Assembly (NCBI RefSeq): GCF_000165505.1
Contig: NC_014632.1
Location: 496,001 to 560,000, forward strand
Origin: Ilyobacter polytropus DSM 2926
GTDB taxonomy: Bacteria; Fusobacteriota; Fusobacteriia; Fusobacteriales; Fusobacteriaceae
DNA length: 64,000 nt
Direction of reading: 5' to 3'
Part shown: positions 29,161 to 46,117 of the stretch, in pieces
Layout of the letters: every line of letters begins with the position of its first letter
Position numbering within the stretch: position 1 is the first letter of the stretch
Made by a program: the position numbers and the translations under genes
Notes under the pieces: generated by a model
What the model was told of the DNA's origin: nothing
What the model saw: the letters and a program-made list of their open reading frames with translations, nothing else
Database searches by the model: none

Positions 29161-30594
29161 ATGACAAATCAAAAATTAGGGTTATCGAGTGCAATTTCAG
29201 CAGGTATTGGTCTAATTGTGGCGACCAGTTGTTTAGTAACATTATCACAAGGTGTTGGTTTTGCAGGTAAGGGATTTATCATCGCTTTGGCTATTGCCTG
29301 TGGATTAAATATTTTAGTATCTTTTTCTTTTGCAGAACTCAACGGATTAATGCCTGTTACTGGTGGGTTGGGTCAGTACACATTAGCAGCAATGGGGCCT
29401 TTTGTATCGATGATTGCCGTTATTGGAGGATATATCATCTGTGGTATTTTGGCAGCCAGTTCAGAAGCCGCTATGATTGGTTTTGTGGTTAATTCATCTA
29501 TTTTACCCAATGTCAGTCCTTTATTGATTACACTTATTTCGATTTTATTCTTATTTATAATTAATGTTTTCGGAATTCGTTCCTATGCAAGAACTCAGAT
29601 GATTACCACAGTTATAATGATAGGTTCCATGATCATAATAGGTGTAATGGGAGCTTTGAAACTTGGCTCTGGTGAAGTAGTTACCCAAGCGAATCAGGCT
29701 TTCAATCCTATGGGATTTGGAGTTGTTTCTATGACAGCTTTGGCTTTCTGGTTGTTTATCGGAGTTGAATTTGTATTACCTTTAACAAAGGATATGAAAA
29801 AACCAGAGAAAGACATTCCTAGGGGGATGATACTAGCCTTACTTATACTAATGGTGGTTCAATCAATTATGATATTCGGTATCTCTAATTATGTACCTTA
29901 TGAAATATTGCAGACATCAAATCAGCCACATATGGATTTCGCCAGACTTTTGTTAGGAAAGGTAGGGACCGGATGGATGACTATTATAAGTATAGGTGCA
30001 GTTGTAAGTACATTAAATACAATCCTTGCCGGTATTCCTAGAATGCTATTGGGAATGGCTGAAGGTGGAATGCTTCCAAAAGCTTTTACAAAAACTAATC
30101 GTTACGGAGTGCCATATAATGGATTGTTTCTTATTACAGGTGGAATTGTAACAGCTCTACTTACAGGTATTACATCAGCCGATGATTTAATAATATTTAT
30201 TCTGACAGGATGTCTATTCTGGATGGCGTCATATATTGTAGCACATTTAAATGTCTTGGTTCTTAGAAAGCGTTATCCAGATGCTAAGAGAAGCTTCTGT
30301 GTCAAATTATTCGGGCTACCTCAAATTGTTGGGATTCTAGGAATGATCTATATGATGACACACATTATAGATGTACCTGATTTAAGAAATGCTATCTATT
30401 CAAACGCTGCAATCTTAATGATGGCTTTAGTTGCTTATTGTTTTGTGTGGGTTAAGTTTGTTATGAAAAAAGGTCTTTTTGAGACTATAAGTATGGAAGA
30501 AGTAATTGCTCAAGATGAGAATAGTTCCGATCTAGATTTAAATAATGATCCAGATTACGATGATGAAAAAAAATTAGAAACTGTTTTCAGTTAA
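29161..30594 (+). CDS. APC-superfamily amino acid/amine permease
   Basis: This 477-residue protein has about twelve membrane segments. The start, SAISAGIGLIVATSCLVTLSQGVG, and the FAELNGLMPVTGGLGQYTLAAMGP stretch are APC-superfamily features. A charged cytoplasmic tail ends the protein. It is the first gene of a long catabolic cluster (OCD-family enzyme, FAD/Fe-S dehydrogenase subunits, RidA), so it most likely imports the amino acid or amine that the cluster oxidises. Ribosome site AGGAGG, ATG start. The substrate is not deducible. Confidence 0.87.
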   Translation: MTNQKLGLSSAISAGIGLIVATSCLVTLSQGVGFAGKGFIIALAIACGLNILVSFSFAELNGLMPVTGGLGQYTLAAMGPFVSMIAVIGGYIICGILAASSEAAMIGFVVNSSILPNVSPLLITLISILFLFIINVFGIRSYARTQMITTVIMIGSMIIIGVMGALKLGSGEVVTQANQAFNPMGFGVVSMTALAFWLFIGVEFVLPLTKDMKKPEKDIPRGMILALLILMVVQSIMIFGISNYVPYEILQTSNQPHMDFARLLLGKVGTGWMTIISIGAVVSTLNTILAGIPRMLLGMAEGGMLPKAFTKTNRYGVPYNGLFLITGGIVTALLTGITSADDLIIFILTGCLFWMASYIVAHLNVLVLRKRYPDAKRSFCVKLFGLPQIVGILGMIYMMTHIIDVPDLRNAIYSNAAILMMALVAYCFVWVKFVMKKGLFETISMEEVIAQDENSSDLDLNNDPDYDDEKKLETVFS

Positions 30595-30638
30595 TTAAAA
30601 AAGGGATTATAAAAATAATTTTTTAGGGGGAAATGAAT

Positions 30639-31775
30639 ATGAAAGATAGTAAAGTAGATTTTATTTATTTAAGTGAAAAGGATATGATTGAAGCTGGAGT
30701 CAAAGATATGGGTGGTTGTGTAGATGCTATGGAGGAGATGTTCAAACTTCTTAAGGTTGGAGATTTTAGAATGGGTGGGTCTAACGGATTTTCTCACGGC
30801 TGTATGGTAACTTTTCCTGAAGAATCACCTTTTCCTAATATGCCTTTAGACGGCCCTGACAGAAGATTTATGGCAATGCCTGCATATCTTGGTGGTCAAT
30901 TTGATATGGCTGGAGCAAAGTGGTATGGATCAAACTCTGACAATAGAGAAAAGGGATTACCAAGATCTATTCTTATGCTAACACTGAATGATAAAGATAC
31001 TGGTGCACCTGTAGCACATATGTCAGCTAACGTTCTCAGTGCCTACAGAACAGGAGCTATTCCTGGAGTGGGAGTGAAATATCTGGCACATGAAAATGCC
31101 AAAGTCTGTGGTATTGTCGGTCCTGGAGTAATGGGGAAAACAGCTTTAGCTTCATTTATAGCTGTAAGACCTGGGATTGAAACAGTGAAAATAAAGGGGA
31201 GAAGTCAAGGATCAATAGATTCTTTCGTAAAATATGTAAAAGAGGAGTTCCCAACTGTTAAAAACATTGAAATCGTTGATGATATAGAGTCAGCAGTTAA
31301 AGATGCTGATGTTGTATGTTTAGCTACTTCTGCAACACTTGGAAATCTTGATGAATATCCATATGTAAAAGAGGAATGGATTAAACCTGGAGCAGTAATA
31401 TGCTGTCCTGCGTCAGCAAGATTTGATGAAGATTTTATTGTAAATAAAGCCAGAACAGTTGTAGATTGTTTACATCTATATGAAGCATGGGCAGAGGAAT
31501 ATCCATATCCAACATTCCATACTATTCCTATTCCAGCTTGTTACAATATGGATTTACTGCATGAAGGGAAAATAACAAAAGATGACATACATGATCTCGG
31601 AGATATTTTAATGGGAACAATTCCTGCCCGTCGTAATGATGAAGAGATAATAATATACTCTGTAGGTGGTATGCCTGTTGAAGACATAGCATGGGGAACG
31701 ATAGTATACAGAAATGCACTTAAAAAAGGCATCGGTACAAAACTTAACCTTTGGGAAAAACCAGAGTTGGCCTAA
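30639..31775 (+). CDS. Ornithine cyclodeaminase/mu-crystallin family protein
   Basis: This 378-residue protein has the family's N-terminal catalytic region and a Rossmann domain (CGIVGPGVMGKTALASFI) with SAYRTGAIPGVGVKYLA, typical of ornithine cyclodeaminase, alanine dehydrogenase of the OCD type and imine reductases. It carries family-atypical insertions (MGGSNGFSHG, GAKWYGSN). NAD(P)-dependent reduction or deamination of a cyclic imine or amino acid is likely, but the substrate is open. ATG 30639 is preferred to 30633 because the TAGGGGG site is then eight bases away. It lies 44 bases after the permease. Confidence 0.8.
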   Translation: MKDSKVDFIYLSEKDMIEAGVKDMGGCVDAMEEMFKLLKVGDFRMGGSNGFSHGCMVTFPEESPFPNMPLDGPDRRFMAMPAYLGGQFDMAGAKWYGSNSDNREKGLPRSILMLTLNDKDTGAPVAHMSANVLSAYRTGAIPGVGVKYLAHENAKVCGIVGPGVMGKTALASFIAVRPGIETVKIKGRSQGSIDSFVKYVKEEFPTVKNIEIVDDIESAVKDADVVCLATSATLGNLDEYPYVKEEWIKPGAVICCPASARFDEDFIVNKARTVVDCLHLYEAWAEEYPYPTFHTIPIPACYNMDLLHEGKITKDDIHDLGDILMGTIPARRNDEEIIIYSVGGMPVEDIAWGTIVYRNALKKGIGTKLNLWEKPELA

Positions 31776-31835
31776 GAAAAATAGTTGACATAAAAAAGTT
31801 AACTTAAAAAATTGAAAAATTAGGAGGGTCTCCAC

Positions 31836-32144
31836 ATGAGAATAGAAGAACACCCGGTACTGGGAAAGATAGAAAAAGGTGAATTAGTGGATTTTACCAT
31901 GGACGGTAAGCCGCTAAAAGGACATGAGGGAGAACCAATATCTGCAGCTTTAAAAGCTGCAGGTGTTATGGTTCACAGACACACACACAAGCATTCTCCA
32001 AGGGGAGTATTCTGTGCTATAGGACGTTGTACAGACTGTGTTATGGTGGTTAATGGCAAGGCAAATGTGAGAACCTGTGTTACTCCTTTAGAGCAGGGAA
32101 TGGTAGTTGAAACTCAATATGGTGTTTCGGCAAAGGCAAAATAG
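31836..32144 (+). CDS. 2Fe-2S small subunit of an FAD amino-acid dehydrogenase (HcnA-like)
   Basis: This 102-residue protein is of the Fer2_4 type found as gamma subunit in hydrogen cyanide synthase (HcnA), opine oxidase and D-hydroxyproline dehydrogenase complexes. The cluster ligands are C60, C65, C68 and C81 (FCAIGRCTDC...RTC), and DGKPLKGHEGEPISAALKAAG is typical of the N-terminus. It would pass electrons from the FAD subunits. ATG 31836 follows AGGAGGG. A 209-base gap without a gene separates it from the next subunit. Confidence 0.85.
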   Translation: MRIEEHPVLGKIEKGELVDFTMDGKPLKGHEGEPISAALKAAGVMVHRHTHKHSPRGVFCAIGRCTDCVMVVNGKANVRTCVTPLEQGMVVETQYGVSAKAK

Positions 32145-32353
32145 ACGAAATTAAATAAAGTTACTTTTTGAATAATTGATGTAAGTTATTGATTTTCTTA
32201 TATTTTTAGTCACAAATCATAAAAATAAACTAAAAGAATGTAAAATTTTGGACACAGAGTATAACAGAGGAAATAAATGAGTTTATTAGAGTCCTAGCAG
32301 AAGAGTTCAGTTTAATTTATAGATTTTAATTATAGAATAGCAAAAAGGATGGG

Positions 32354-33949
32354 ATGAATATGAAAAGATATGATCTTATAGTAGTCGGTGCAGGACCTGC
32401 AGGACTTTCAGCTGCCATTGAAGCTGCAAAAAGAGGTCTCGAAGTAGCTGTTTTCGATGAAAACTCTAAGCCAGGTGGCCAACTATTTAAGCAAATACAT
32501 AAATTTTTCGGATCCAAAGAACATAAAGCTAAAATAAGAGGGTTTAAAATCGGGGATGAGCTCCTTGAAACAGCTAATGAGCTGGGTGTTAAAGTTGTGT
32601 TGAATGCAATTGTTATTGGAATTTATTCTGAAAAAGAGATAACAGTTAATATAGATGATGAAATAATACACTATAAAGCAGATTCAATTATAGTAGCTAC
32701 AGGGGCATCTGAAAACATGGTTACATTTGACGGGTGGACACTTCCAGGTGTTATAGGTGCAGGAGCTGCACAGACTATGATGAATTTACACGGAGTGAAA
32801 CCTGGTAAAAAAATACTAATGCTTGGGAGTGGTAATGTAGGCTTGGTTGTAAGTTATCAACTGTTACAAGCAGGATGTGAGGTAGTTGCAGTTGTAGATG
32901 CAGCACCAAAAATCGGTGGATATGGTGTTCATGCTGCAAAAATAGCACGTTGCGGTGTTCCTTTTTACCTGTCACATACAATTATCAAAGCAGAGGGTGA
33001 TGACTGTATTAATGGAGTTGTGGTAGGAGAAGTTGACAGTAAATGGCAGATTGTAGAAGGAACGGAAAAACACTTTGATGTAGACACGATATGTCTGGCT
33101 GTAGGTCTATCTCCTATATCTCAGCTATTAAAAATGGCAGGGTGTGAAATGATTGAAGATCCTAAAAAAGGAGGACTGGTTCCTGTCTGTGATAATTATG
33201 GTGCCACGTCACTTCCAGGGATATTTGTTGCAGGGGATGTATCGGGTATAGAGGAAGCGAGTTCTGCAATGATAGAAGGAAGAATAGCTGGAATTGCAGC
33301 TGCTCACGCTTTGGGTTATATAGAAAAAGAAGAATTGATAAAAGAAGCTGAAGAACTAGAATCTTCTCTTATAAGCTTACGTCAGGGAATGTTTGCCCCT
33401 GAAAATCGAGGTAAAGACATTCTTAAAACTGATGAAGGTTTTGATGTTTCAAACAACTTACTAAGAAAAGGTTATTTAACAGATGACGAAGTGACAAAAT
33501 ATCCTGGTGTAAAATCAGTAAGCGGAGTACATCCTATTATTGAGTGTTCACAAAATATTCCGTGTAATCCTTGTCAGGATGCCTGTCCTAAAGGATGTAT
33601 AAAAATTGGTTCTGATATCACAACATTGCCAGCTTTTGACGAGTCAACAAAATGTACTGGTTGTGGCTTGTGTGTAGTATCGTGTTCAGGACAATCAATA
33701 TTCTTAATAGATGAGGATAAAGAAAAAGGATATACTCACATTACTATGCCTTATGAATTTTTACCATTGCCTGAAAAGGGTGACAAAGGAAAGGCATTGG
33801 ATCGTAGTGGTAAACCAATTTGTGAGGCTGAAGTTGTTGGTGTGAGGACATCAAAGAATTTTGATCAAACAAGTTTGCTAACTATTAAAGTTACAGATGA
33901 TATGGGGATGAAAGCCCGTTTCTTCAAGCAGTTGCAGGAGGTAAAATAA
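32354..33949 (+). CDS. FAD/NAD(P)-binding dehydrogenase subunit with ferredoxin domain (HcnB-like)
   Basis: This 531-residue protein starts with an FAD fold (YDLIVVGAGPAGLSAAIEAAKRG), has a second dinucleotide fold (KILMLGSGNVGLVVSYQLLQAG) and a closing FAD motif (GIFVAGDVSG). Residues about 395-455 add two 4Fe-4S sites (CNPCQDACPKGC and CTGCGLCVVSC). HcnB-type alpha subunits usually carry a BFD-like C-terminal domain instead; here that domain is the separate next gene. It probably channels electrons from amino-acid oxidation to a low-potential acceptor. ATG 32354, with 32360 as a close alternative. Confidence 0.85.
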   Translation: MNMKRYDLIVVGAGPAGLSAAIEAAKRGLEVAVFDENSKPGGQLFKQIHKFFGSKEHKAKIRGFKIGDELLETANELGVKVVLNAIVIGIYSEKEITVNIDDEIIHYKADSIIVATGASENMVTFDGWTLPGVIGAGAAQTMMNLHGVKPGKKILMLGSGNVGLVVSYQLLQAGCEVVAVVDAAPKIGGYGVHAAKIARCGVPFYLSHTIIKAEGDDCINGVVVGEVDSKWQIVEGTEKHFDVDTICLAVGLSPISQLLKMAGCEMIEDPKKGGLVPVCDNYGATSLPGIFVAGDVSGIEEASSAMIEGRIAGIAAAHALGYIEKEELIKEAEELESSLISLRQGMFAPENRGKDILKTDEGFDVSNNLLRKGYLTDDEVTKYPGVKSVSGVHPIIECSQNIPCNPCQDACPKGCIKIGSDITTLPAFDESTKCTGCGLCVVSCSGQSIFLIDEDKEKGYTHITMPYEFLPLPEKGDKGKALDRSGKPICEAEVVGVRTSKNFDQTSLLTIKVTDDMGMKARFFKQLQEVK

Positions 33950-33950
33950 T

Positions 33951-34274
33951 ATGAGTAAAATAAATGATCGTTCAAAAGATATAGGAAAATTTATTCCTCA
34001 AGCTGATGATGATACGATAATCTGCAGATGTGAGGAAGTAACAAAGGGTGAAATTCGTCAAGCAATACATGCAGGGATGTTTACGCTTCAAGAAGTACGT
34101 AAATATTTGAGAACTGGAATGGGGTTGTGCCAAGGTCAGACCTGCGGGAAACTTGTTAAAAAGATTATTTCCCAAGAATTGGGGATTTCTCCTTTAGAAT
34201 TGGAATCGGCTGTATCAAGAGCTCCAATGAGACCCATCGAAATGAAAGTTCTTGGGAACGAGAGGAAGGGGTGA
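33951..34274 (+). CDS. BFD-like (2Fe-2S)-binding protein
   Basis: This 107-residue protein carries the BFD-type ligand set C25, C27, C60 and C65 (ICRCEEV ... GLCQGQTCG). In most HcnB/LhpA-type alpha subunits this module is fused to the C-terminus; here it starts 1 base after the stop of the FAD/ferredoxin subunit and ends 4 bases before the next subunit, so translation is coupled. It is expected to be part of the same membrane-associated or soluble complex as a further electron-transfer step. Confidence 0.87.
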   Translation: MSKINDRSKDIGKFIPQADDDTIICRCEEVTKGEIRQAIHAGMFTLQEVRKYLRTGMGLCQGQTCGKLVKKIISQELGISPLELESAVSRAPMRPIEMKVLGNERKG

Positions 34275-34278
34275 GAAG

Positions 34279-35406
34279 ATGATAAATAAAGCAGATGTAA
34301 TTATAATAGGAAGTGGAGTTATAGGGAATGCCACTGCATATAATCTTGCAAAAGCAGGGAAATCCGTTATTGTACTGGAAAAAGATGAAAGCATCGGTGA
34401 CGGGGGATCGACACGTAACGGTGGAGGTGTGAGACAGTCTGGGCGTCATTCTGCCGAGCTTCCACTGGCAATGTACGGTGTAAAAAATCTTTGGCCAAAC
34501 CTTTCTGAGGAATTGGGAGTAGATGTTGAGTACTATCAAGAAGGGAATCTTCGGTTGGGGAAGACTGAAGAACATCTGAAAGTACTGCAGGGAATAGTGG
34601 ACAGAAGTAAAGCCTTAGGTTTGGATCTAAAAATGGTAGAAGGAGACGAGGCCAGAGAAATATGTCCTTACCTCTCTGATGAAGTTATAGGGGCGAGCTG
34701 GTGTCCTACAGATGGCCACGCGAACCCTATGCTGGTCACTTTGGGATATTATAAAAAAGCCCGTGAACTTGGTGCCTGTTTTATTACAGGGGAAGAAGTT
34801 GTCGAGATAAAGAAAATTAAAGGTAAAGCCCGGCAGGTAGTGACAAAAGAAAATATTTATGAAGGGGATAAAATCATCCTTGCAGCAGGATATGGAAGCC
34901 GTAAAATTGCAGAAACAGTAGGTGTCGATGTACCGATGAATCCTATTTTAATGGAAGTATTGGTCACAGAAGCACAATCTCCGATGTTTTATCAGATGCT
35001 GGGAACAGCAGAAGCGGATTTTTATGGACACCAAAGTACCCACGGTTCCTTTGTTTTTGGAGGAACTTCAGGACATGAAGCCTTTAACAAAGATGGTGGA
35101 ATCCATGCTACTAACAGTAAAACAGCATCGGCAGTCTGCAGAGGGATCATGAAGTATTTTCCTGATTTAGGTGATCTTAAGATCATCCGTACATGGGCCG
35201 GACATCTAGATTATTGTGTAGACGGTATCCCTGTAATGAGTCATGTGGAGGAAGTTCCGGGACTCATTCTTGCATGTGCTTTTTCAGGGCACGGATTTGG
35301 TATCGCACCTACTGTAGGGATGCTGCTTAGTGAAATGGCGATGGATAAAGAGACAACACTGGATGTGACTCCGTTCAGATATGACAGATTTAAAGCTAAA
35401 ATATAG
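34279..35406 (+). CDS. FAD-dependent amino-acid oxidoreductase catalytic subunit (DAO family, HcnC-like)
   Basis: This 375-residue protein has the FAD motif ADVIIIGSGVIGNATAYNLAKAG, GGGVRQSGRHSAELP and a C-terminal FSGHGFGIAPTVGMLLSE, typical of the D-amino-acid/glycine/sarcosine oxidase superfamily. With the 2Fe-2S and FAD/Fe-S subunits it resembles the heteromeric proline, hydroxyproline, opine and glycine (cyanide-forming) dehydrogenases, which oxidise a C-N bond to an imine. The start at 34279 follows GAAGGGGTGAGAAG and leaves 4 bases after the previous stop. Confidence 0.85.
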   Translation: MINKADVIIIGSGVIGNATAYNLAKAGKSVIVLEKDESIGDGGSTRNGGGVRQSGRHSAELPLAMYGVKNLWPNLSEELGVDVEYYQEGNLRLGKTEEHLKVLQGIVDRSKALGLDLKMVEGDEAREICPYLSDEVIGASWCPTDGHANPMLVTLGYYKKARELGACFITGEEVVEIKKIKGKARQVVTKENIYEGDKIILAAGYGSRKIAETVGVDVPMNPILMEVLVTEAQSPMFYQMLGTAEADFYGHQSTHGSFVFGGTSGHEAFNKDGGIHATNSKTASAVCRGIMKYFPDLGDLKIIRTWAGHLDYCVDGIPVMSHVEEVPGLILACAFSGHGFGIAPTVGMLLSEMAMDKETTLDVTPFRYDRFKAKI

Positions 35407-35440
35407 ATGATTTAAAATTTAAAAATGTGGAGGAAAATAT

Positions 35441-35833
35441 ATGGAAATGGTAAGAACAAATTATTCTTCAGGTGCACCTTTAGAAGAAAAAGCAGGATAT
35501 TCAAGAATGGTTACAGTGGGACCTTTTGTATATTTAGGAGGGACAACATCTGTAAAACCAGATGGAACAGTACACGGTGAAGATGACCCTTATGAACAGA
35601 CAAAATTTATTTTTGATAAATTATTGAAAATTATGGAAAAAGCAGATTCCGGAGCTGAAAATGTCGTAAAAGTAAAAGCCTATGTTACTGATATGAAATA
35701 TGCTCCTGAAGTTGCGAGGGCTTATTCTGAATACTTTTTAAATATAAAACCACTTTTTACTATGGTTGGTACAACTATGCTTAACCGTCCAACTCAGTTA
35801 GTTGAGATTGAAATGGATGCAATAAAATATTAA
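35441..35833 (+). CDS. RidA/YjgF/YER057c-family enamine/imine deaminase
   Basis: This 130-residue protein shows the RidA pattern: YSRMVTVGPFVYLGGTT, AENVVKVKAYVTDM and a C-terminal NRPTQLVEIEMDA with the conserved arginine. RidA proteins hydrolyse reactive imine/enamine intermediates to keto acids plus ammonia. That suits the position after an imine-forming FAD dehydrogenase. Start ATG 35441 with GGAGG. A terminator-like hairpin follows. Confidence 0.9.
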   Translation: MEMVRTNYSSGAPLEEKAGYSRMVTVGPFVYLGGTTSVKPDGTVHGEDDPYEQTKFIFDKLLKIMEKADSGAENVVKVKAYVTDMKYAPEVARAYSEYFLNIKPLFTMVGTTMLNRPTQLVEIEMDAIKY

Positions 35834-35865
35834 TTCACATAAATAAAATAATTAATTGAAAAAGG

Positions 35866-35896
35866 AAAAACCGGGCCTAATTAGGCTCGGTTTTTT
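35866..35896 (+). terminator. Terminator after the RidA gene
   Basis: AAAACCGgGCCT pairs with AGGCtCGGTTTT around AATT, followed by T6. It ends the dehydrogenase operon before the alcohol dehydrogenase gene. Confidence 0.75.
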
Positions 35897-35966
35897 ACTG
35901 GATAATTGTAGTGATAACAGAACAATACAGCCTTCAGGCTATATTTTAATATGTAGGAGGAAAAAG

Positions 35967-37115
35967 ATGAATTTTATTTTTGATATACCAGCAACTGTAT
36001 TTTTTGGAGATAATAAAATAGTAGAAACAGGTAACTTATTAAAAGGTTTTGGTACAACTAAAACGATGATTGTTTGTGATAAAGCTATGTTAGACTTAGG
36101 GTTTGTAGATAAGGTTATTAGTTCGCTTGAAGAAGAAAATATAGAATATGTTATTTTTGATTCGGTTATGCCAAACCCCACAGATGTATTGATGCATGAA
36201 GGTGCTAAAATTGCTGAAGAAAAAAATATTAATTCTTTCGTTGCAATTGGTGGTGGAAGTGTTATGGACAGTGCTAAAGCTATTAATATTTTACTTACTA
36301 ATAAAGGTAAGATAGCTGATTATGAAGGGATAAACAAAGTTGCAATATCTACACTGCCGTTGATTATGATTCCGACAACATCAGGGACTGCCAGTGAAGT
36401 GACCTCTGTGAGTGTTGTGACAGACACAAAACGTCACAAGAAAATGGTCATTGCCGGTCAATTTGTTGGTGGGAATATAGCACTATGTGATCCAAGCTTA
36501 ACTATGAAACTGCCAAAAGGCATAACTGCTTCTACTGGTATGGATGCATTAACTCATGCAATAGAGGCTTATGTTTCCAAATGGGCATCCCCTGTAACAG
36601 ATGCCATGGCATTAAAATCAATTAAATTGATAATGGAGAGCCTTGAAGAAGCTGTTCTTAAAAGTAGTAAAATATCTAGAGAGAAAATGATGTTAGGGAG
36701 TGTTACAGCAGGAATGGCTTTTAACTCTGCATTGTTAGGGTTAGTACATTCTCTGGCTCATCCGCTTAGTGCTCATTATGATATTGCTCATGGGGTAGCC
36801 AATGCTATTTTTCTACCTTATGTAGTTGAGTATAATATTGAAACCTTCGGAGATAAACTTAAGCCTTTGGCTGAATCCATGGGTATTGAAATTGGTGGAC
36901 TTGATGAGAAAACATTGGCTGACTCGGTTGTAAATAAGCTGATAGATTTATCAGAAACCATAAAGATTCCAAAGCTCAAATCATTAAATATTCCAAAAGA
37001 AGATTTTAAAATGCTCGCAGAAGAAGCGATGCTTGAAATGAGTACGATGACTAATCCTAAGGAAACAAATGTTGATGATTTGATTATGATAATTGAAAAA
37101 GCATACTTGAGATAA
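35967..37115 (+). CDS. Iron-containing alcohol dehydrogenase
   Basis: This 382-residue protein belongs to the group III Fe-dependent alcohol dehydrogenases: GGGSVMDSAKAI for NAD binding, PTTSGTASEVT, and metal ligands in MDALTHAIEAYVS and LAHPLSAHYDIAHGVANAI. It would reduce an aldehyde or oxo acid made by the preceding pathway to an alcohol, disposing of NADH (inference). ATG 35967 follows TAGGAGG; the longer open frame from 35856 runs through the terminator. No promoter is clear, so readthrough past the hairpin is possible. Confidence 0.88.
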   Translation: MNFIFDIPATVFFGDNKIVETGNLLKGFGTTKTMIVCDKAMLDLGFVDKVISSLEEENIEYVIFDSVMPNPTDVLMHEGAKIAEEKNINSFVAIGGGSVMDSAKAINILLTNKGKIADYEGINKVAISTLPLIMIPTTSGTASEVTSVSVVTDTKRHKKMVIAGQFVGGNIALCDPSLTMKLPKGITASTGMDALTHAIEAYVSKWASPVTDAMALKSIKLIMESLEEAVLKSSKISREKMMLGSVTAGMAFNSALLGLVHSLAHPLSAHYDIAHGVANAIFLPYVVEYNIETFGDKLKPLAESMGIEIGGLDEKTLADSVVNKLIDLSETIKIPKLKSLNIPKEDFKMLAEEAMLEMSTMTNPKETNVDDLIMIIEKAYLR

Positions 37116-37423
37116 AAAGATACAATAATAAGTATGGGAAATTTTATCTTCTATTTTTTAATTGTGCAAAAAATATTTTAGATTACAATTCCCATAGAAT
37201 AACCCCTAAAAAATAAACTTAAAAAGATCTAGAATCCTAAATATCTATTCTAAATATATTAGGAGTACTCATGAAAACATATTATTAAGATTATATTAAG
37301 CTCGTTCAGGACGAATCAGTAGATATAAATATTGATAAAATAATGATATAATAAAATATGAGCTCGGAAGGATTTTGAATATTATATCCTTATAGGATTG
37401 TAAGATTAAAAAAAGGGGAAATT
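37116..37423. other. Intergenic region before the PucR gene
   Basis: It contains an inverted pair TATGGGAA/TTCCCATA (about 37133-37197), a second imperfect hairpin (TCCTAA/TTAGGA, about 37230-37264) and, after a TTAGGAG site, an ATG frame at 37271 that stops after five codons and reopens for 20 more. No gene is called. Confidence 0.45.
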
Positions 37424-38602
37424 ATGGCTATAAAATTAAGTGAATTATATAAATCTACTAGCAGAAAAAATATGAAATTAATTGCCGGTAAAAATGGTAT
37501 TAATAATATTGTTACATGGGCACATATGATTGAAAGTATTGAAACATCAATTTTCTTGGATGGTAAGGAGTTGGCTTTTATAACTGGTATTGCTCTAGAA
37601 AAAGTTGATATAGAGGAGAAATTATATGAGCTAGTTGAGCATACTTATAAACATAAGGCCAGCGGCATAGTTATAAATACAGGTCCGTATATTGAAAAAA
37701 TACCAGAGGATGTTATACAGTTCTGCAATGAAAATAATTTTCCACTTTTTGAAGTTCCATGGCATACTCATTTGGCTAATCTTATGAAAGATTTTTGCTA
37801 TCAAATAACCCTATCAGATAAAACTACCCTCGAACTGTCAAGTGCTCTAAATAATGCGATCTTTTTTCCAAGCCAACATGAACTCTATATTCCCTACTTA
37901 GAAAGCAAAGGTTTTAGAACTATATGGCCATATTGCGTTGTTCTTATAGAAATATTTGAGCGAGACGGAATAACGGCAGTTAATAGTAAAAAGAGAATTA
38001 AACTTTTAAGATTCATAGAAAATATTTTGTACTCCTACGAAAGAACTATCATTTATGATGTGGATGCTAAGATTACTCTTGCTTTCGCCAATTATACTCA
38101 AGAAGAAATAAAAAATATACTTGATGAAATAAAAAAAAGATGTATGGAAATATTGAAAAAAGATGAAAAAATATATTTATGTGTTGGAGAAAATACTAAA
38201 AATATCCAATGTATTGCAAAAAGTGCTCGGCAAGCAATGGATGTATTGAAACTCCAAAGAAAAAAAGAAATTTATGATAAGGTCAGTATGTATAGTGATT
38301 TGGGGGCGTACAAACTACTCTTGGCAATAGAAGATAAAGAAATTATTAAAAAATACTTCCGAGAAACCATAGAGGAACTTGTTAAAAATGATGAATTAAA
38401 GGGGACAGATTACTTAACAGTATTAGAAAGTTATCTTAGAAATAGCGGAAGCATCAAAGCAGTTTCTGAAGAACTTTTTTATCATAAAAATACCGTGTGC
38501 TATAAATTGTCCAAAATTGAGGGTATACTAGGGTGTAATTTATCCTACTTAGATAATAGAATGACATATAGGTTGGCTCTTATGATAATGGATATAATTT
38601 AA
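37424..38602 (+). CDS. PucR-family transcriptional regulator
   Basis: This 392-residue protein has the N-terminal PucR/CdhR ligand-binding domain (LSELYKSTSRKNMKLIAGKNG) and the C-terminal PucR helix-turn-helix (YLRNSGSIKAVSEELFYHKNTVCYKLSKIEGILG). These regulators usually activate catabolic operons for purines, amino acids or alcohols. Its place right after the oxidation cluster suggests it controls that cluster. ATG 37424 with AAAGGGG upstream. Confidence 0.88.
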   Translation: MAIKLSELYKSTSRKNMKLIAGKNGINNIVTWAHMIESIETSIFLDGKELAFITGIALEKVDIEEKLYELVEHTYKHKASGIVINTGPYIEKIPEDVIQFCNENNFPLFEVPWHTHLANLMKDFCYQITLSDKTTLELSSALNNAIFFPSQHELYIPYLESKGFRTIWPYCVVLIEIFERDGITAVNSKKRIKLLRFIENILYSYERTIIYDVDAKITLAFANYTQEEIKNILDEIKKRCMEILKKDEKIYLCVGENTKNIQCIAKSARQAMDVLKLQRKKEIYDKVSMYSDLGAYKLLLAIEDKEIIKKYFRETIEELVKNDELKGTDYLTVLESYLRNSGSIKAVSEELFYHKNTVCYKLSKIEGILGCNLSYLDNRMTYRLALMIMDII

Positions 38603-38731: not shown

Positions 38732-39463
38732 ATGATTGATAGAAATTCAAGAACACCTATATATGTCCAAATAGAAAAATATTTTTTAGAACTAATTCAA
38801 GAAAATAAGATAAAAGTCGGAGAGCAGTTTCCATCTGAGACTGTTCTGTCAAAAGAACTTGGTGTAAGCAGAATGACAATAAGACAGGCAATAAATAGTC
38901 TTGTTATAAACGGTTATCTCGTTAGAAGTAGGGGGAAAGGTACTTTCGTTAAAGAAAGAGATACTAAAAAAATAGAGTTACCGTTGGATAAACTTCGAAA
39001 TTTTTCAAAAGAAGTGCAAAAATCTGGTAAAGAACCTGTAAATATAGTTGTGGTCTTTAAGCTGACAGAAGCACCATTAAATATTTCTAAAATTTTAAAG
39101 ATAGCAGATGGGGAAAAAGTTTTTTATATGGAAAGACTTAGGTGTTTGGGCGATGTACCAGCAGTATTAGAACAGACATATATGCGTAATGATCTTTTTG
39201 ACGATCTTACAGAGGATGTCATACTTTCTTCTAAATATAAATATATTCAAGAAAAAGGTTATAAGATAAAAGAAAGTAAGAGAGAAATCATGGCCGAAAT
39301 TCCATTGGAAAATGTAGCAAGTCTTTTAAAATTAAATAGAAATGAGCCTGTTCTCAAGGCTAAATCCATAACTTTTTTAGCCGATGGAACCCCTTTTGAA
39401 TACTCGGAAATAAGCTATAATCAAAAAAAATATAAGTTCACTTTGATAGCAGAATATGATTAA
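38732..39463 (+). CDS. GntR-family (HutC subfamily) regulator with UTRA domain
   Basis: This 243-residue protein has an N-terminal winged helix (IYVQIEKYFLELIQENKIKVGEQFPSETVLSKELGVSRMTIRQAI) and a C-terminal UTRA sugar-phosphate-binding domain (about 90-240). The GH4/PTS operon begins 136 bases downstream, and its promoter is overlapped by the palindrome AATTGTCTAGACAATT, of the TTGT-N4-ACAA form bound by relatives such as TreR. It is therefore probably a repressor released by a phosphorylated sugar. E. coli mngR, controlling mannosylglycerate uptake, is of the same regulator type. Confidence 0.9.
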   Translation: MIDRNSRTPIYVQIEKYFLELIQENKIKVGEQFPSETVLSKELGVSRMTIRQAINSLVINGYLVRSRGKGTFVKERDTKKIELPLDKLRNFSKEVQKSGKEPVNIVVVFKLTEAPLNISKILKIADGEKVFYMERLRCLGDVPAVLEQTYMRNDLFDDLTEDVILSSKYKYIQEKGYKIKESKREIMAEIPLENVASLLKLNRNEPVLKAKSITFLADGTPFEYSEISYNQKKYKFTLIAEYD

Positions 39464-39499
39464 AAACACACAATGGCTGTTCTAAAAAAAAACTTTATG

Positions 39500-39528
39500 T
39501 TGACAGAATTGTTTTTTTTAACTATACT
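39500..39528 (+). promoter_or_regulatory. Promoter of the GH4/PTS operon
   Basis: TTGACA (39500-39505), 17 bases, TATACT (39523-39528). Confidence 0.75.
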
Positions 39529-39530
39529 TG

Positions 39531-39546
39531 AATTGTCTAGACAATT
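39531..39546. promoter_or_regulatory. Operator palindrome AATTGTCTAGACAATT
   Basis: A perfect 16-bp palindrome directly after the -10 box, covering the predicted transcription start. A further half site (TAGACAA) follows at 39546-39552. Expected to bind the neighbouring GntR/UTRA protein. Confidence 0.7.
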
Positions 39547-39598
39547 AGACAACTTGGAAATTTGTTAAATTTGTAATATATTTTTAAAGAGGAGTGAG

Positions 39599-40927
39599 AT
39601 GATGGATAAGAGATTTAATATTGTATTAGTCGGTGGAGGATCTACATGGACTCCAGGAATTTTAAAGGCAATTTGTAAAAAACAGAAAGATTTTCCTTTA
39701 GCGAGTATAGTATTATATGATGTTGATGAAGAAAGGCAGGAGGTTATTGGAAAGTTTGGAGAAATTCTTTTTAGGGAAGAATATCCAGAAGCAAAATTTA
39801 TTTATACAACGGATAAAAAGGTAGCTTTTACAGATATGGATTTTGTATTCTGCCAAATGAGGACAGGCGGATATCCAATGAGAGAACTAGATGAAAAGAT
39901 ACCATTAAGTGAGGGTGTTATTGGTCAAGAAACTTGTGGTCCAGGAGGATTTGCATACGGTATGAGATCAATAAGAGATATGATAGAATTAGTTAATGAC
40001 GTAAGAGAAATGTCTCCAGATGCTTGGATACTAAACTATACAAATCCTGCCGCTATAGTAGCAGATGCTTTAAACAGGGTATTTCCTGATGATAAAAAAA
40101 TTCTCAACATCTGTGATCAGCCGGTAAATCTTTTGAGGTCATATGGAAGGTTGCTTGATATGGATCCAAGTGAATTTGAACCTGTATATTTTGGACTCAA
40201 TCACTTTGGATGGTTTACACACCTGTATAATAAGAATGGTGTAGACATGGCACCTAAGTTAAAGGAGATAATTACGACTGGTGGATTTATTCCTGTAGAT
40301 GCCGAACAGAGAGATCAATCTTGGCTCGATACATATGCAATGGTTAGAGATATGCTGGTAGACTTCCCGGAATATCTACCGAATACTTATCTTCAATATT
40401 ATTTATATCCTGATTATAAAGCAAATAAGTTAGATCCTAATTATACAAGAGCCAATGAGGTAATGAACGGAAGAGAAAAGAGAGTGTTCCAGGAGTGTAG
40501 AGATGCTGTAAATGCCGGAACAACAAAGCTTTCTGATGTAGTTCACAATGATGCTCATGGTGATATGATTGTTGAAGTAGCTGAGGCTATTGCATTTAAT
40601 AAAAATAAAACATATATTGTTATTATTCAAAATAATGGACTTGTTGAAAATGTTCCTAACGATGCCATGGTAGAAGTAGCTGCGTCACTAGGGATAAATG
40701 GTCCCAAACCTTACGGTGTTGGAAAAGTAGATACTTTTTATAAGGCTATGATAGAAAATCAATTTGCATATGAGAGACTAACTGTGGAGGCTTACTTTGA
40801 AGGGTCATATAATAAGGCACTGAAAGCACTTACGCTAAACAGAACTGTTGTTGATGCAAAAAAAGGAAGGAAAATATTGGATAAACTTATTGATGCTAAT
40901 AAGGATTATTGGCCTAAATTAGTGTAG
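39599..40927 (+). CDS. GH4 6-phospho-alpha-glucosidase
   Basis: This 442-residue enzyme is close to fusobacterial MalH/GlvA: GGGSTWTPGI (NAD binding), GVIGQETCGPGGFAYGMRSI, NYTNPAAIVA, NICDQP (C172, D173) and GLNHFGW (H202). GH4 enzymes use NAD and Mn to split phosphorylated glycosides by a redox-elimination route. The CD-P motif is of the alpha-glucosidase subgroup (CDMP) rather than the CN-P motif of 6-phospho-beta-glucosidases; the third residue, Q for M, is unusual. The operon context suggests its aglycone may be glycerate. ATG 39599, or 39602, follows AGAGGAG. Confidence 0.9.
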   Translation: MMDKRFNIVLVGGGSTWTPGILKAICKKQKDFPLASIVLYDVDEERQEVIGKFGEILFREEYPEAKFIYTTDKKVAFTDMDFVFCQMRTGGYPMRELDEKIPLSEGVIGQETCGPGGFAYGMRSIRDMIELVNDVREMSPDAWILNYTNPAAIVADALNRVFPDDKKILNICDQPVNLLRSYGRLLDMDPSEFEPVYFGLNHFGWFTHLYNKNGVDMAPKLKEIITTGGFIPVDAEQRDQSWLDTYAMVRDMLVDFPEYLPNTYLQYYLYPDYKANKLDPNYTRANEVMNGREKRVFQECRDAVNAGTTKLSDVVHNDAHGDMIVEVAEAIAFNKNKTYIVIIQNNGLVENVPNDAMVEVAASLGINGPKPYGVGKVDTFYKAMIENQFAYERLTVEAYFEGSYNKALKALTLNRTVVDAKKGRKILDKLIDANKDYWPKLV

Positions 40928-40951
40928 AATAATTTGAAATAGGGGTGAATT

Positions 40952-42469
40952 ATGAAGGATAAGGTTATGAAATATCTGCAGGATTTTGGTAGAAGTTTAA
41001 TGTTACCAATTGCCCTCTTAGCAGCGGTGGGTATATTGTTTGGATTCACTGCTGCATTGAGTAGGCCGCAAATTAAAGATATGCTGCCCTTCCTTAATGG
41101 TGGTGGAGTAGCATATGTGCTTTTCTTGATTAGAACTATGAGTATTAAAATATTTGGTCTAATTCCTGTGCTATTTGCAATTTCTATTTCTTTGGGACTT
41201 GCAAAGAAAGAAAAAGAAATAGCTGCACTTGCAGGGTTTGTATGTTATTACACATTAATGTGGAGTTCAAGTTACATGGTAGCATCAAACTATATATCAT
41301 TTCCAAATTCAGCATTGGGAAGCGCCTTAGGACTAGGTGGAGTTCCTGAAATGGGAGCTGTCGGAGGAATGATAGCAGGTACACTCACTGCTTATATTCA
41401 CAATAAATATTATAATATTAATCTTCCTGTTGCTATAGCCTTCTTCGGAGGAAAAAGATTTGTGGCAATCGGGGTAATTATTGTGGGATCAATATTAGGT
41501 CAAATTCTTCCATTTATCTGGCTACCTATAAGTAATACAATACAATTTGTAGGTATTGGAATATCCAATCTGGGACTTTTTGGAACATTTCTATATGGTT
41601 TTTTAGAAAGACTTTTAATTCCTACTGGGTTGCATCATATTTTAAATGGTATATTCAGAACTACAGCTGTAGGTGGAGAACTAAATGGAACTGTTGGAGT
41701 ATGGAATATCTTCTTTGAGTATTTTGGTAAAGTAGATATAAACGAGTTGAAAGAATATACAAGATTTTTATCTCAGGGAAAAATTCCTTACATGGTATTC
41801 GGTCTACCTGCGGCGGCCCTAGCTATGTATAAAACCGCCCCAGAAGGTAAAAAGAAAACCACAGAGGCACTTCTTATAGCAGGAGTTCTTGCTTCTATGA
41901 CTACAGGAATTACAGAACCTTTAGAGTTTACATTTCTATTTATAGCTCCATTATTATTTGTTTTCCATTCGGTAATGGCTGGTCTATCATTTTTACTAAT
42001 GGATTTATTCAGTGTAGGAATTGGAAATACTCAAGGTGGTCTTATTGATCTATTGGTATATGGAACTCTGGTACCAGGCTCAAATTGGATATATCCAGTT
42101 ATAGTTGGTCTGGGTTACTCTGGAATATATTACTTTACCTTTAAATATTATTTCACCAAAAAAGGAATAATTATAGACTCAGGTGTAGAAAGCACGGAAA
42201 AATCATCTACAAATATATCCGAAAGCAAAGATGAAAAAACAGCATTAATAATAGATGGTCTCGGTGGAGATTCTAATATAGTGTCGGTGGACAACTGTTT
42301 TACTAGACTTAGACTTGAGGTTAAGAATTCAAAAGACATTGACGAAGTGAAACTAAAATCAACTGGTGCAGCAGGAATAAAGATAATTTCTGAGACACAG
42401 GTGCAAGTTATATATGGTCCGAAAGTAAATATTATAGCAAGTGGGGTCAAGGATCATTTAGGTTATTAA
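40952..42469 (+). CDS. PTS enzyme IICB, glucose/alpha-glucoside type
   Basis: This 505-residue protein has a membrane IIC domain (about 1-400; SLMLPIALLAAVGILFG, GLHHILNGIF, TGITEPLEFTFLF) and a C-terminal IIB domain with the phospho-cysteine C449 in DNCFTRLRL. It imports and phosphorylates a glucoside-type substrate. No IIA is fused; the Glc-type IIA is encoded at 43760. It starts 24 bases after the GH4 gene, so uptake and hydrolysis are coupled. Confidence 0.92.
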   Translation: MKDKVMKYLQDFGRSLMLPIALLAAVGILFGFTAALSRPQIKDMLPFLNGGGVAYVLFLIRTMSIKIFGLIPVLFAISISLGLAKKEKEIAALAGFVCYYTLMWSSSYMVASNYISFPNSALGSALGLGGVPEMGAVGGMIAGTLTAYIHNKYYNINLPVAIAFFGGKRFVAIGVIIVGSILGQILPFIWLPISNTIQFVGIGISNLGLFGTFLYGFLERLLIPTGLHHILNGIFRTTAVGGELNGTVGVWNIFFEYFGKVDINELKEYTRFLSQGKIPYMVFGLPAAALAMYKTAPEGKKKTTEALLIAGVLASMTTGITEPLEFTFLFIAPLLFVFHSVMAGLSFLLMDLFSVGIGNTQGGLIDLLVYGTLVPGSNWIYPVIVGLGYSGIYYFTFKYYFTKKGIIIDSGVESTEKSSTNISESKDEKTALIIDGLGGDSNIVSVDNCFTRLRLEVKNSKDIDEVKLKSTGAAGIKIISETQVQVIYGPKVNIIASGVKDHLGY

Positions 42470-42472
42470 ATT

Positions 42473-42500
42473 AAAAAGGATAGAGGTGTCTATCCTTTTT
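42473..42500 (+). terminator. Hairpin between IICB and glycerate kinase
   Basis: AAAAAGGATAGA (42473-42484) pairs perfectly with TCTATCCTTTTT (42489-42500) around GGTG. It can act as a partial terminator, lowering expression of the two downstream genes; no strong promoter follows it. Confidence 0.65.
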
Positions 42501-42574
42501 AATATTAGATATTTTAAAATTAAAGATTTCTTTGAATAATCTAAGTCTGGTTGTATTTGGGGGTAAGGATTTTA

Positions 42575-43729
42575 ATGAAAGTAGTTATTGCGGTAGATTC
42601 CTTTAAGGGAAGCCTTAGTTCATTAGAGCTTGGACAGCTTATAGAAAATGGTATAAAAAAAATATATGAAAATGCAGAGGTAAAAAAAGTCCCTGTGGCA
42701 GACGGGGGAGAAGGAACAGTAGATGCCCTTGTAGAGGGAACAAAGGGTCAATTTGTAGATGTAAAAGTACACGACCCTTTTATGAGACTAATAGATGCTA
42801 AATATGGAATAATGGGAAATAATGTGGCTGTTATAGAGATGGCAGAGGCATCGGGACTACCCCTTTTAAAACCGGAAGAGAGAGATCTCAGAAAAGCCAC
42901 AACATATGGTACTGGGGAACTTATAAAAGATGCAATTGAAAAAGGGTGTAGAGAGTTTATTATAGGTATAGGTGGAAGTGCAACAAATGATGCAGGTCTT
43001 GGAATGATGCAAGCATTGGGATATAAATTTTTGGATAAAGATGGAGAACTTCTTGGTTACGGCGGCGAGATAATGGGAAAAGTGGCTGAAATAGATTCTA
43101 GTGGTACCATGGACGGTCTTAATAAATGCCGGTTTTCTGTAGCCTGTGATGTGGATAATCCTTTTTATGGTCCTAAAGGAGCGGCTCATGTGTATAGCAG
43201 GCAAAAGGGTGCCGATGATGAAACGGTGGAATACTTGGACTTATCTCTTCAAAAACTAGCTTTGACTCTTAAGGAAAAAACAGGTAAAGACATATCTGAT
43301 ATACCTGGAGCAGGAGCGGCAGGAGGTCTAGGAGGAGGCTTTGTAGCTTTCCTAGATGGGGAGCTGAAGCCTGGGATAGATATAATCCTTCAGGAGGTAG
43401 GACTTGCTGAGAGTATAGAGGGTGCAGACTTTGTAATAACTGGTGAAGGAAGGATAGACTTTCAGTCAGTTATGGGGAAAGCCCCAATGGGCGTATCTAA
43501 AATGTCTAGGGACAAAGGAATTCCTGTAATAGCAATAGCAGGATGCGTGGCAGATGATGCAGGAGCCATGCATGATCACGGCTTAGATGCCTTCTTCTCT
43601 ACTATAAATTACCCTGTTTCTCTTGAAGAAGCAATGAATAAAGAGAGAGCCGGAACTTTTGTAGAAAAAAACGTTGAAGAGATATTTAGATTAATAAAGG
43701 TTTGTGAAATAAAATATAAATCGAGATAA
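42575..43729 (+). CDS. Glycerate kinase
   Basis: This 384-residue protein matches the GlxK/GarK family: MKVVIAVDSFKGSLSSLE, VADGGEGTVDAL, IGIGGSATNDAGLGMMQALG, IPGAGAAGGLGGGF and ITGEGRID. It phosphorylates D-glycerate (mostly to 2-phosphoglycerate in this family), feeding lower glycolysis. Its position between the IICB and IIA genes of a PTS is unusual and suggests that the imported glycoside contains glycerate. ATG 42575 follows GGGGGTAAGG; the frame from 42551 lacks a ribosome site. Confidence 0.93.
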   Translation: MKVVIAVDSFKGSLSSLELGQLIENGIKKIYENAEVKKVPVADGGEGTVDALVEGTKGQFVDVKVHDPFMRLIDAKYGIMGNNVAVIEMAEASGLPLLKPEERDLRKATTYGTGELIKDAIEKGCREFIIGIGGSATNDAGLGMMQALGYKFLDKDGELLGYGGEIMGKVAEIDSSGTMDGLNKCRFSVACDVDNPFYGPKGAAHVYSRQKGADDETVEYLDLSLQKLALTLKEKTGKDISDIPGAGAAGGLGGGFVAFLDGELKPGIDIILQEVGLAESIEGADFVITGEGRIDFQSVMGKAPMGVSKMSRDKGIPVIAIAGCVADDAGAMHDHGLDAFFSTINYPVSLEEAMNKERAGTFVEKNVEEIFRLIKVCEIKYKSR

Positions 43730-43759
43730 AAAAATCAACTTTATTCTTAGGAGGTTAGT

Positions 43760-44263
43760 ATGGGATTATTTAATTTTTTTAAAAAGGAAAAAACAATTGA
43801 AGATAATTGGTTTGATATCTATTCACCATTAAATGGTAAGGTTATAAATATTTCCGAAGTTCCTGATGAAGCTTTTGCAAGCAAGATGATAGGAGACGGG
43901 TGTGCAATAGAACCATATGAAGGGTCAATATTTTCTCCAGTTGCAGCGGAAATAAATATTTTTGAAACTAATCATGCTGTTAGTTTTGAAGTGGAAAATG
44001 AAATTGAAATGATAGTCCATTTTGGAATAGATACTGTTAATCTTAAGGGAAATGGGTTTGAAAGGATTGCTGAATCAGGATTAAAAGTAAAAATAGGAGA
44101 AGAGCTTGTTAAATATGATATTGACTTTATAAAAGAAAATGCCAAGTCTGTAAGAACTCCAGTTATCATAAATAATATGGACTTGGTTGAAGAGTTGAAG
44201 ATTGTGGCCAATGGAGATGTCAAAGTCGGAGATTTGCTGATGAGAGTCAAAATGAAAAAATAG
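43760..44263 (+). CDS. PTS enzyme IIA, glucose type
   Basis: This 167-residue protein is a Glc-type IIA. H87 in MIVHFGIDTVNLKGNGFERIAESG is the phosphorylated histidine and H72 (ETNHAVSFE) its partner. It takes phosphate from HPr and passes it to the IIB cysteine of the IICB protein. It lies 30 bases after the glycerate kinase gene, which ties that kinase to the PTS operon. Confidence 0.93.
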   Translation: MGLFNFFKKEKTIEDNWFDIYSPLNGKVINISEVPDEAFASKMIGDGCAIEPYEGSIFSPVAAEINIFETNHAVSFEVENEIEMIVHFGIDTVNLKGNGFERIAESGLKVKIGEELVKYDIDFIKENAKSVRTPVIINNMDLVEELKIVANGDVKVGDLLMRVKMKK

Positions 44264-44689
44264 GTATATTCGAAATTAAGTTTAAATAACCTTTTAAATT
44301 ACCGATAGGGCTCTAATCAGGGCTCTTTTTTTTATCCCGAAGGTGGTAAAATTTGAAGAGTTATAGTACCAGATCTTTTGTCATAGTGAATTATATTTTT
44401 GTGGAAACAGAAAAAACAGCATAATAGATAATTTTATTGATTAAAATAAAATATCAATCAAAACTAACTATATGAAAAATTTTTAAAAGTTATTTGAAAA
44501 AGTGTTGTCATTATAGATATTTACTACTAAACTTATATAATGAGATAAAAAAGTTGTGGGTACTTTATACAATGTCAATTTTAATAAATACTGGGGTAAA
44601 ATATTTACGGTTAATAAAAAAATGTTCTGAATATTCAGATCATTACGAGAGGGTTTTTAATATAATTGTAGAACTTAGGAGAAATTATT
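44264..44689. other. Intergenic region between IIA and the FGGY kinase
   Basis: A direct repeat GGGCTC-TAATCA-GGGCTC followed by T8 (about 44308-44334) resembles a terminator but does not form a hairpin. A 67-codon frame (44494-44697) overlaps the kinase start and lacks a ribosome site. No clear promoter is recognised. Confidence 0.4.
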
Positions 44690-46117
44690 ATGAGTAAGTA
44701 TATAATAGGCATAGATAATGGTTCACAAAGCACTAAAGTTACTATTTTTGACTTGGAAGGAAATGAAGTTTGCTATGGATCTAAAACTTTAAAAAGCCTC
44801 TATACAGCCGAAGGCGGTGTAGCATTACATCCTAATGATGATCTATGGGATAGTGTCCTAGGTGGATTAAAGGACTGTCTAAGTAAATTTACTGGAAATA
44901 AAAATTCTATCTTGGCCATAGGACTTTGCACAATAAGGTGTTGTCGTGTACTCCTAAAAAAAGATGGTTCACTAGCCTATCCTGTTTTAAGCTGGATGGA
45001 CAAAAGGTTGTCTGCACCCTATGTGCATGATAATGATGAGGTGAAATATGTTACAACTACTTCAGGTTACTTAGCTAGCAGAATGACAGGCGAATTCAAA
45101 GATACCTGCAGTAATTTAGAAGTTTACTGGCCAATTGACAGAAAAACTCTTGACTGGTCAACAGATGACCAAGTTATAAAAGATAATGGACTAAAGAGAG
45201 ATCAATTATTTTCTATAATAAAACCGGGCGAGAGCTATGGTTCTTTAAAAACTGAGTTGTGCAGAGAATTTGGTCTGAAAGAGGGAATTCAAGTTGTATC
45301 AAGTGGTAATGATAAGGCTGTGGAAGTACTAGGTTCTGGCATCAATGACGATAAATCAATTATGATCTCTTTGGGAACTTTTATATCTTCTATGCTTTTG
45401 AGAGAAGATTATTTTGAAGATGCCAAGAGTTTCTTTCCAACATTAGCCTGTGTTCCTTTTAAATATGTCTATGAATCTAAAGGAATAAGAAGGGGAATGT
45501 GGACTGTAAGTTGGTATAAAGACCTTCTAGGTGAAGAAGTAATCAAAAAATCTAAAGAATTAGGTGTTTCTGAAGAAGATTATTTAAATCAAATTGGGGA
45601 AACAATACCTCCAGGAAGTGATGGGCTGATCACTTTATTAGACTGGCTAAACAATTCAGATTATGAGTTCAGGAAAGGAGTTATGCTAGGTTTTGACCAT
45701 AGGCATACAAGTGCTCACATATACCGTTCTATTCTAGAGGCCATCTCCTACAACATTAAAAATAATATATATGAGATGCTAGATGAAATAGGAGCTGAGA
45801 TCGATAATATTACTGTAATCGGTGGAGGCTCTAAGAGTAACTTAATGATGAAGATAATAGCTGATATGTTTGGTTTACCGGTTAAAAGAAACAAAGCAAC
45901 GAGTTCTGCTTGTCTTGGTGCAGCAATATGTGCTGCCAAATATCTAGGCATATATAAATCCTTTGATGAAGCAATGGAAAAAATGGTTAGAGTCAGTGAA
46001 GTCTTTGAACCAGATAAAAATCTTTATAAATTTTATGATGAGATAAATACAAAGGTAATTAAAAATATAAGAAAACATACTGATGAAATTTTGAAGATAA
46101 CACATTCAGTCTTTTAA
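44690..46117 (+). CDS. FGGY-family carbohydrate kinase
   Basis: This 475-residue protein has the FGGY fold: N-terminal phosphate loop GIDNGSQSTKVTIFD, SWMDKRL, SGNDKAVEVLGSG and the C-terminal ITVIGGGSKSNLMMKIIADMFGLPV. It resembles xylulokinase-like members of uncertain specificity. No sugar transporter or isomerase is adjacent except the PTS operon just upstream, from which it is separated by 426 bases. The substrate is unknown. ATG 44690 with TAGGAGAA. Confidence 0.85.
   Translation: MSKYIIGIDNGSQSTKVTIFDLEGNEVCYGSKTLKSLYTAEGGVALHPNDDLWDSVLGGLKDCLSKFTGNKNSILAIGLCTIRCCRVLLKKDGSLAYPVLSWMDKRLSAPYVHDNDEVKYVTTTSGYLASRMTGEFKDTCSNLEVYWPIDRKTLDWSTDDQVIKDNGLKRDQLFSIIKPGESYGSLKTELCREFGLKEGIQVVSSGNDKAVEVLGSGINDDKSIMISLGTFISSMLLREDYFEDAKSFFPTLACVPFKYVYESKGIRRGMWTVSWYKDLLGEEVIKKSKELGVSEEDYLNQIGETIPPGSDGLITLLDWLNNSDYEFRKGVMLGFDHRHTSAHIYRSILEAISYNIKNNIYEMLDEIGAEIDNITVIGGGSKSNLMMKIIADMFGLPVKRNKATSSACLGAAICAAKYLGIYKSFDEAMEKMVRVSEVFEPDKNLYKFYDEINTKVIKNIRKHTDEILKITHSVF

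Follow-up and report, generated by a model that had tools for sequence, protein, structure and literature searches.

A five-gene operon of Ilyobacter polytropus, a strict anaerobe from marine mud whose genome comprises 3,132,314 bases with a chromosome I of 2,046,464 bases (PMC3035301), likely serves the PTS-mediated uptake and breakdown of 2-O-alpha-glucosylglycerate, with cleavage by a GH4 hydrolase, a subsequent glycerate kinase (GK) step, and control by a GntR-type regulator. The operon lies in a 64,000-nucleotide stretch of DNA, referred to here as the window. The sequences themselves show the gene content, the gene linkage, the repeated recruitment of GKs, the co-location with GH38 relatives of the mannosylglycerate hydrolase, a duplicated GK, and a conserved operator-like box, and the comparative sequence evidence supports the glucosylglycerate reading put forward in the first-pass annotation. 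In the proposed route, 2-O-alpha-glucosylglycerate would be imported by the PTS as the 6-phosphate, the NAD+- and metal-dependent GH4 enzyme would release glucose 6-phosphate and glycerate from 6-phospho-glucosylglycerate, the GK would convert glycerate to phosphoglycerate, and both products would enter glycolysis; the GntR protein probably represses at the promoter TTGTCTAGACAA box as long as neither the substrate nor its phosphate is present. Glycerate as a product is the best-supported step of this mechanism, while we infer the exact substrate, its 6-phosphate, and the mode of action of the regulator: the glucosyl group because of the GH4 subfamily and because the mannose version is served by GH38, and the 6-phosphate because of what is known of the PTS and the GH4 family.

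The operon is arranged in the order GntR/UTRA regulator, GH4, PTS IICB, GK, and PTS IIA, and all five genes are located on the + strand and identified by profile matches over the family cut-offs. Briefly, a HutC-type GntR/UTRA regulator (38732-39463; PF00392 and PF07702), the probable repressor of the operon, is followed by the GH4 gene (39599-40927; PF02056 and PF11975), which encodes a predicted 6-phospho-alpha-glucosidase, by an EIICB of the glucose/MalX superfamily that forms a clade of its own (40952-42469; PF02378 and PF00367), by a PF02595-type GK (42575-43729), and by an EIIA of the glucose (Crr) type (43760-44263; PF00358 at 152 bits, and TIGR00830), which carries the NHAVSFE and VHFGIDT motifs. 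The GK scores 469 bits against TIGR00045 (cut-off 168) and 488 bits against PF02595 (cut-off 23); ATG at 42575 is the better start, and TTG at 42551, which gives a longer reading frame, is less likely. The gene order and the position of the GK between the two PTS genes, both described previously, are confirmed at these coordinates with the family cut-offs well exceeded. Homologues of the GntR gene adjoin GH4/IICB genes in loci of Vibrio, Enterobacterales, and Fusobacteriota. Two neighbors were considered as operon parts and rejected. The FGGY-family kinase just past the operon (44690-46117), which is similar to xylulokinase and AI-2 kinase and reaches no equivalog cut-off, is separated by a terminator-like site after IIA and is kept only in the near-identical congener, as are the upstream iron-alcohol dehydrogenase and PucR genes. 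A separate cluster at 29161-38602 encodes an amino-acid permease, a member of the ornithine cyclodeaminase family, an FAD/NAD oxidoreductase with an Fe-S domain, a DAO-type oxidase, RidA, an iron-alcohol dehydrogenase, and a PucR activator, and looks like a route for an opine or an amino-acid derivative.

The GH4 protein, the only one encoded in the I. polytropus genome, scores 177 bits against PF02056 (cut-off 23) and 181 bits against PF11975 (cut-off 24), and its best three PDB matches are all 6-phospho-alpha-glucosidases (6vc6, 591 bits; 6dux, 457 bits; 1u8x, 454 bits). The dinucleotide-binding GGGS motif (VGGGS), the CDxP motif, and the NH motif are present, and C172-D173, N201-H202, and Y264/Y267/Y268 are conserved in >97% of 123 sequences. 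The CDxP motif presumably marks the alpha type and, together with the PDB matches, predicts a 6-phospho-alpha-glucosidase. Like GlvA (PDB 1u8x), 6dux, 6vc6, and AglB/MalH, the enzyme belongs to a PTS-linked family with conserved cofactor and metal motifs; unlike them, it falls into a separate clade linked to GK and GH38, whose members are 65-82% identical to the window GH4, compared with about 41-54% for the other GH4s sampled. Gln237-Arg238, invariant in this clade and missing from GlvA/AglB-like sequences, was considered as a clade-specific, carboxylate-binding pair and rejected, as it is also found in 6vc6 and in three loci that are not linked to GK (L108-L110). The carrier is similarly distinct: it scores 406 bits against MalX TIGR02004, under the cut-off of 632, and 218 bits against the alpha-glucoside carrier TIGR02005, under the cut-off of 607, and it is also under the glucose-carrier cut-off, although it belongs to the glucose/MalX superfamily and its IIB domain carries the DNCFTRLR motif. 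The transporters of the clade form at least two groups, 38-51% and 34-38% identical to the window IICB, respectively, the latter occurring in Enterococcaceae, Collinsella, and some Bacillaceae.

The linkage between GH4 and GK was surveyed in 80 relatives of the window GH4 (65-82% identity), fetched with flanks of up to 8 kb. GK was found inside the fetched flanks of 23 of the 80 clade loci, in approximately 14 genera, and the linkage is not due to chance, because it is members of the same GH4 clade that lie near GK in these loci. Rather than being confined to this genome, the case raised in the first-pass annotation as a point against the reading, the linkage is shared by members of Fusobacteriota, Bacillota, and Pseudomonadota, whose GKs were drawn from different lineages. 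Many of the linked genera are salt- or alkali-loving (Alkalibacterium, Halolactibacillus, Amphibacillus, Streptohalobacillus, and Thermohalobacter), and IICB, "6-phospho-alpha-glucosidase," and "glycerate kinase" are annotated consecutively on a Vibrio plasmid. As a control, clade GH4s and other GH4s of the same genome sets were compared for a GK within 3 kb, with the places paired by hand. The pooled counts are 10/26 for clade GH4 vs. 0/131 for other GH4; in Fusobacteriota, they are 4/14 vs. 0/53 for other GH4s of the 6-phospho-alpha type (Fisher p 0.0013), and in Lactobacillales 6/12 vs. 0/78 (Fisher p 1.5e-6), both p values ignoring shared ancestry. Two other GH4 genes (G240 and G217) have a GK 6.5-7.6 kb away, without GH38. 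Gene order varies among GH4-IICB-GK, IICB-GH4-GK, and a divergent GK, and GKs that adjoin closely related GH4 genes often share no more than 37-47% identity: in Vibrio sinensis/cincinnatiensis, the GH4 is 96.4% and the GK 46.5% identical, with corresponding values of 82 and 37% in Alkalibacterium and 79 and 42% in Bacillaceae. The kinases were therefore recruited more than once, and 11 changes are needed to place the GK label on the GH4 tree. By contrast, GK is missing from the fetched DNA (flanks of up to 8 kb) in 57 of the 80 clade loci, and the clade may therefore not share one substrate. Where the clade GH4 stands apart from any GK, 21 of 22 sampled genomes encode one elsewhere, which is weak evidence because GK genes are widespread (88 of 118 Lactobacillales genomes). 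Among the loci without GK, the Enterobacterales copies between rhlE and dinG add no extra metabolic genes. In five Enterobacterales loci (L011, L018, L020, L022, and L073), a GntR-IICB-GH4 set without GK is located just upstream of dinG, and rhlE lies on the other side of the set in several loci.

This recurrent and clade-specific linkage, with different GKs recruited, argues against an ordinary operon for alpha-glucosides such as maltose, sucrose isomers, or trehalose in which the GK is present by accident. That explanation draws on the solved matches of the hydrolase, which include the B. subtilis maltose-6'-phosphate glucosidase, and on the relationship of the IICB with MalX; nevertheless, it is unlikely. 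The published description of I. polytropus gives glucose and fructose as used and maltose, sucrose, trehalose, melezitose, raffinose, and mannose as not used (PMC3035301). As the species has no GH4 gene other than the one in the window, its reported failure to use maltose, sucrose, trehalose, or melezitose weakens the maltose alternative. Slightly less probable still is another glycerate-yielding alpha-glycoside, i.e., alpha-galactosylglycerate, 3-O-glucosylglycerate, or a longer glucosylated glycerate. The evidence is stronger for glycerate as a product than for glucose as the sugar, and GH4 also includes galactoside and uronide enzymes, with PRK15076 as a weak relative of the window protein; however, every one of the nearest solved structures is a 6-phospho-alpha-glucosidase, 2-O-alpha-glucosylglycerate is the abundant natural compound among the alpha-glycosides of glycerate, and galactosylglycerate is not known as an osmolyte.

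The glucosylglycerate reading is further supported by the second of the two GK genes of I. polytropus, which closes the operon ManA-GntR-MngA-MngB-GK at C1:848000-864000 of the same genome. MngA (996 bits, cut-off 763) and MngB (1243 bits, cut-off 1138) match the curated equivalogs for the carrier and the hydrolase of 2-O-mannosylglycerate. Identity between the two GKs is 88% at the protein and 84.6% at the DNA level, and a tree of GKs places the window copy and that of the congener, with full support, together with those of mannosylglycerate operons; the window GK is therefore a recent copy in the mannosylglycerate-operon lineage, and glycerate is the product in the mannosylglycerate operons that other members of this lineage serve. 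The parallel with mngAB drawn previously thus has a concrete counterpart in a genuine MngA-MngB-GK operon of the same genome, which shares the recently duplicated GK. Similar to E. coli mngR-mngA-mngB, the window operon is proposed here to combine PTS uptake as the 6-phosphate, a phospho-glycosidase releasing hexose 6-phosphate and glycerate, and a GntR-type regulator. Unlike mngAB, it has a GH4 rather than a GH38 hydrolase and a glucose-family IICB with a separate IIA rather than the fructose-family MngA, and its sugar would be glucose; with this IICB and GH4, the operon works like the MngA/MngB system and is not a member of it.

Furthermore, relatives of MngB occur within the GH4 cassettes themselves. 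The arrangement RpiR-GH38-IICB-GH4-GK was found in eight Bacilli loci (Alkalibacterium, Halolactibacillus, and Desemzia), and GH4-RpiR-GH38-IICB-GntR in five Fusobacteriaceae genomes; Youngiibacter also has GH38 in the GH4 cassette, with no GK detected, and two further genomes have GK-RpiR-GH38-IICB without a clade GH4. The cassettes thus contain GH38 only, GH4 only, or both. In four Bacillota members scanned, the GH38 partner reaches 771-811 bits with the MngB profile, under the cut-off of 1138, and is a relative of MngB with a putative role as mannosylglycerate hydrolase. This GH38 subfamily near MngB (L047, L055, L056, L065, L094-L099, and L107) occurs with RpiR and one IICB lineage, and in Bacillus AFS055030, IICB-GH4-GK adjoins the true MngB and MngA. 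The pairing of GH38 and GH4 fits a scheme in which each of the two epimeric hexosylglycerates has its own hydrolase and the step that follows is common to both. A second mannosylglycerate route, in which the GH4 enzyme would split mannosylglycerate 6-phosphate imported by the IICB, accords with the origin of the window GK and with the GH38 relatives in the same cassettes as GH4, but is highly improbable, as the genome already has MngA/MngB, the cassettes with both hydrolases would be redundant, and we know of no GH4 alpha-mannosidase. Beyond the glucosylglycerate operon itself, we tentatively suggest, as a possibility somewhat short of even, a widespread modular hexosylglycerate PTS in which one glucose-family IICB lineage serves mannosyl- and glucosylglycerate, with paired GH38 and GH4 phospho-hydrolases and a GK either shared or separately recruited. 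In four Alkalibacterium cassettes (L050, L053, L057, and L065), the GK is followed by an MscS-type mechanosensitive-channel gene, in keeping with the osmolyte theme.

Marine picocyanobacteria and other organisms use glucosylglycerate as a major compatible solute, and little is known of what becomes of it in anaerobes, Vibrio, and salt-loving Bacilli. The known breakdown enzymes are a GH63 hydrolase and a GH13_18 phosphorylase (PMC11009771, PMC6608630). The mycobacterial GH63 enzyme GgH shares the proposed substrate and aglycone with the window GH4 (PMC6608630, PMC11009771); however, it acts on the unphosphorylated substrate, belongs to another family, and has no PTS. Glucosylglycerate phosphorylase (GGaP, GH13_18) likewise shares the proposed substrate (PMC11009771), whereas it proceeds by phosphorolysis to glucose 1-phosphate without a PTS. 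As the first-pass annotation had supposed, a search of the open-access literature, subscription journals being mostly outside this scope, turned up no glucosylglycerate pathway with a GH4 enzyme or a PTS. If the proposed route is correct, phosphate would be conserved and two glycolytic intermediates gained, a large GH4 clade now labelled only "6-phospho-alpha-glucosidase" would acquire a function, and a genomic marker for glucosylglycerate-eating bacteria would become available.

The best sigma-70-like promoter of the region, TTGACA-N17-TATACT (39500-39528, + strand), agrees with the consensus at 11 of 12 positions and is assigned by consensus match only. Directly 3' of it lies an exact, operator-like palindrome, AATTGTCTAGACAATT (39531-39546), overlapping the expected transcription start, and its core TTGTCTAGACAA has no second exact site in the genome. 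The same box occupies the same place in L009, L093, L013, and L025. Across the 1.76 Mb of loci fetched, the core TGTCTAGACA is otherwise confined to sites ahead of GH4 or IICB, namely those of a Fusobacteriia MAG, the congener, Siccibacter, and Brenneria. Conservation of the box is only partial, because it is present in only 5 of 39 GntR-linked loci, two of which (L009 and L100) come from one MAG. At the end of the operon, a terminator-like hairpin with a T run (44307-44334, + strand) was identified by a consensus scan only. A strong hairpin between IICB and GK (42470-42503, + strand; 15 pairs, -17.6 kcal/mol, z -5.40) is kept in the congener L093 and may act as an attenuator or partial terminator; the expression level of GK-IIA may therefore differ from that of GH4-IICB, a potential separation that counts against the proposed route, and a possible attenuator at this site could set the kinase level below those of the hydrolase and the carrier.
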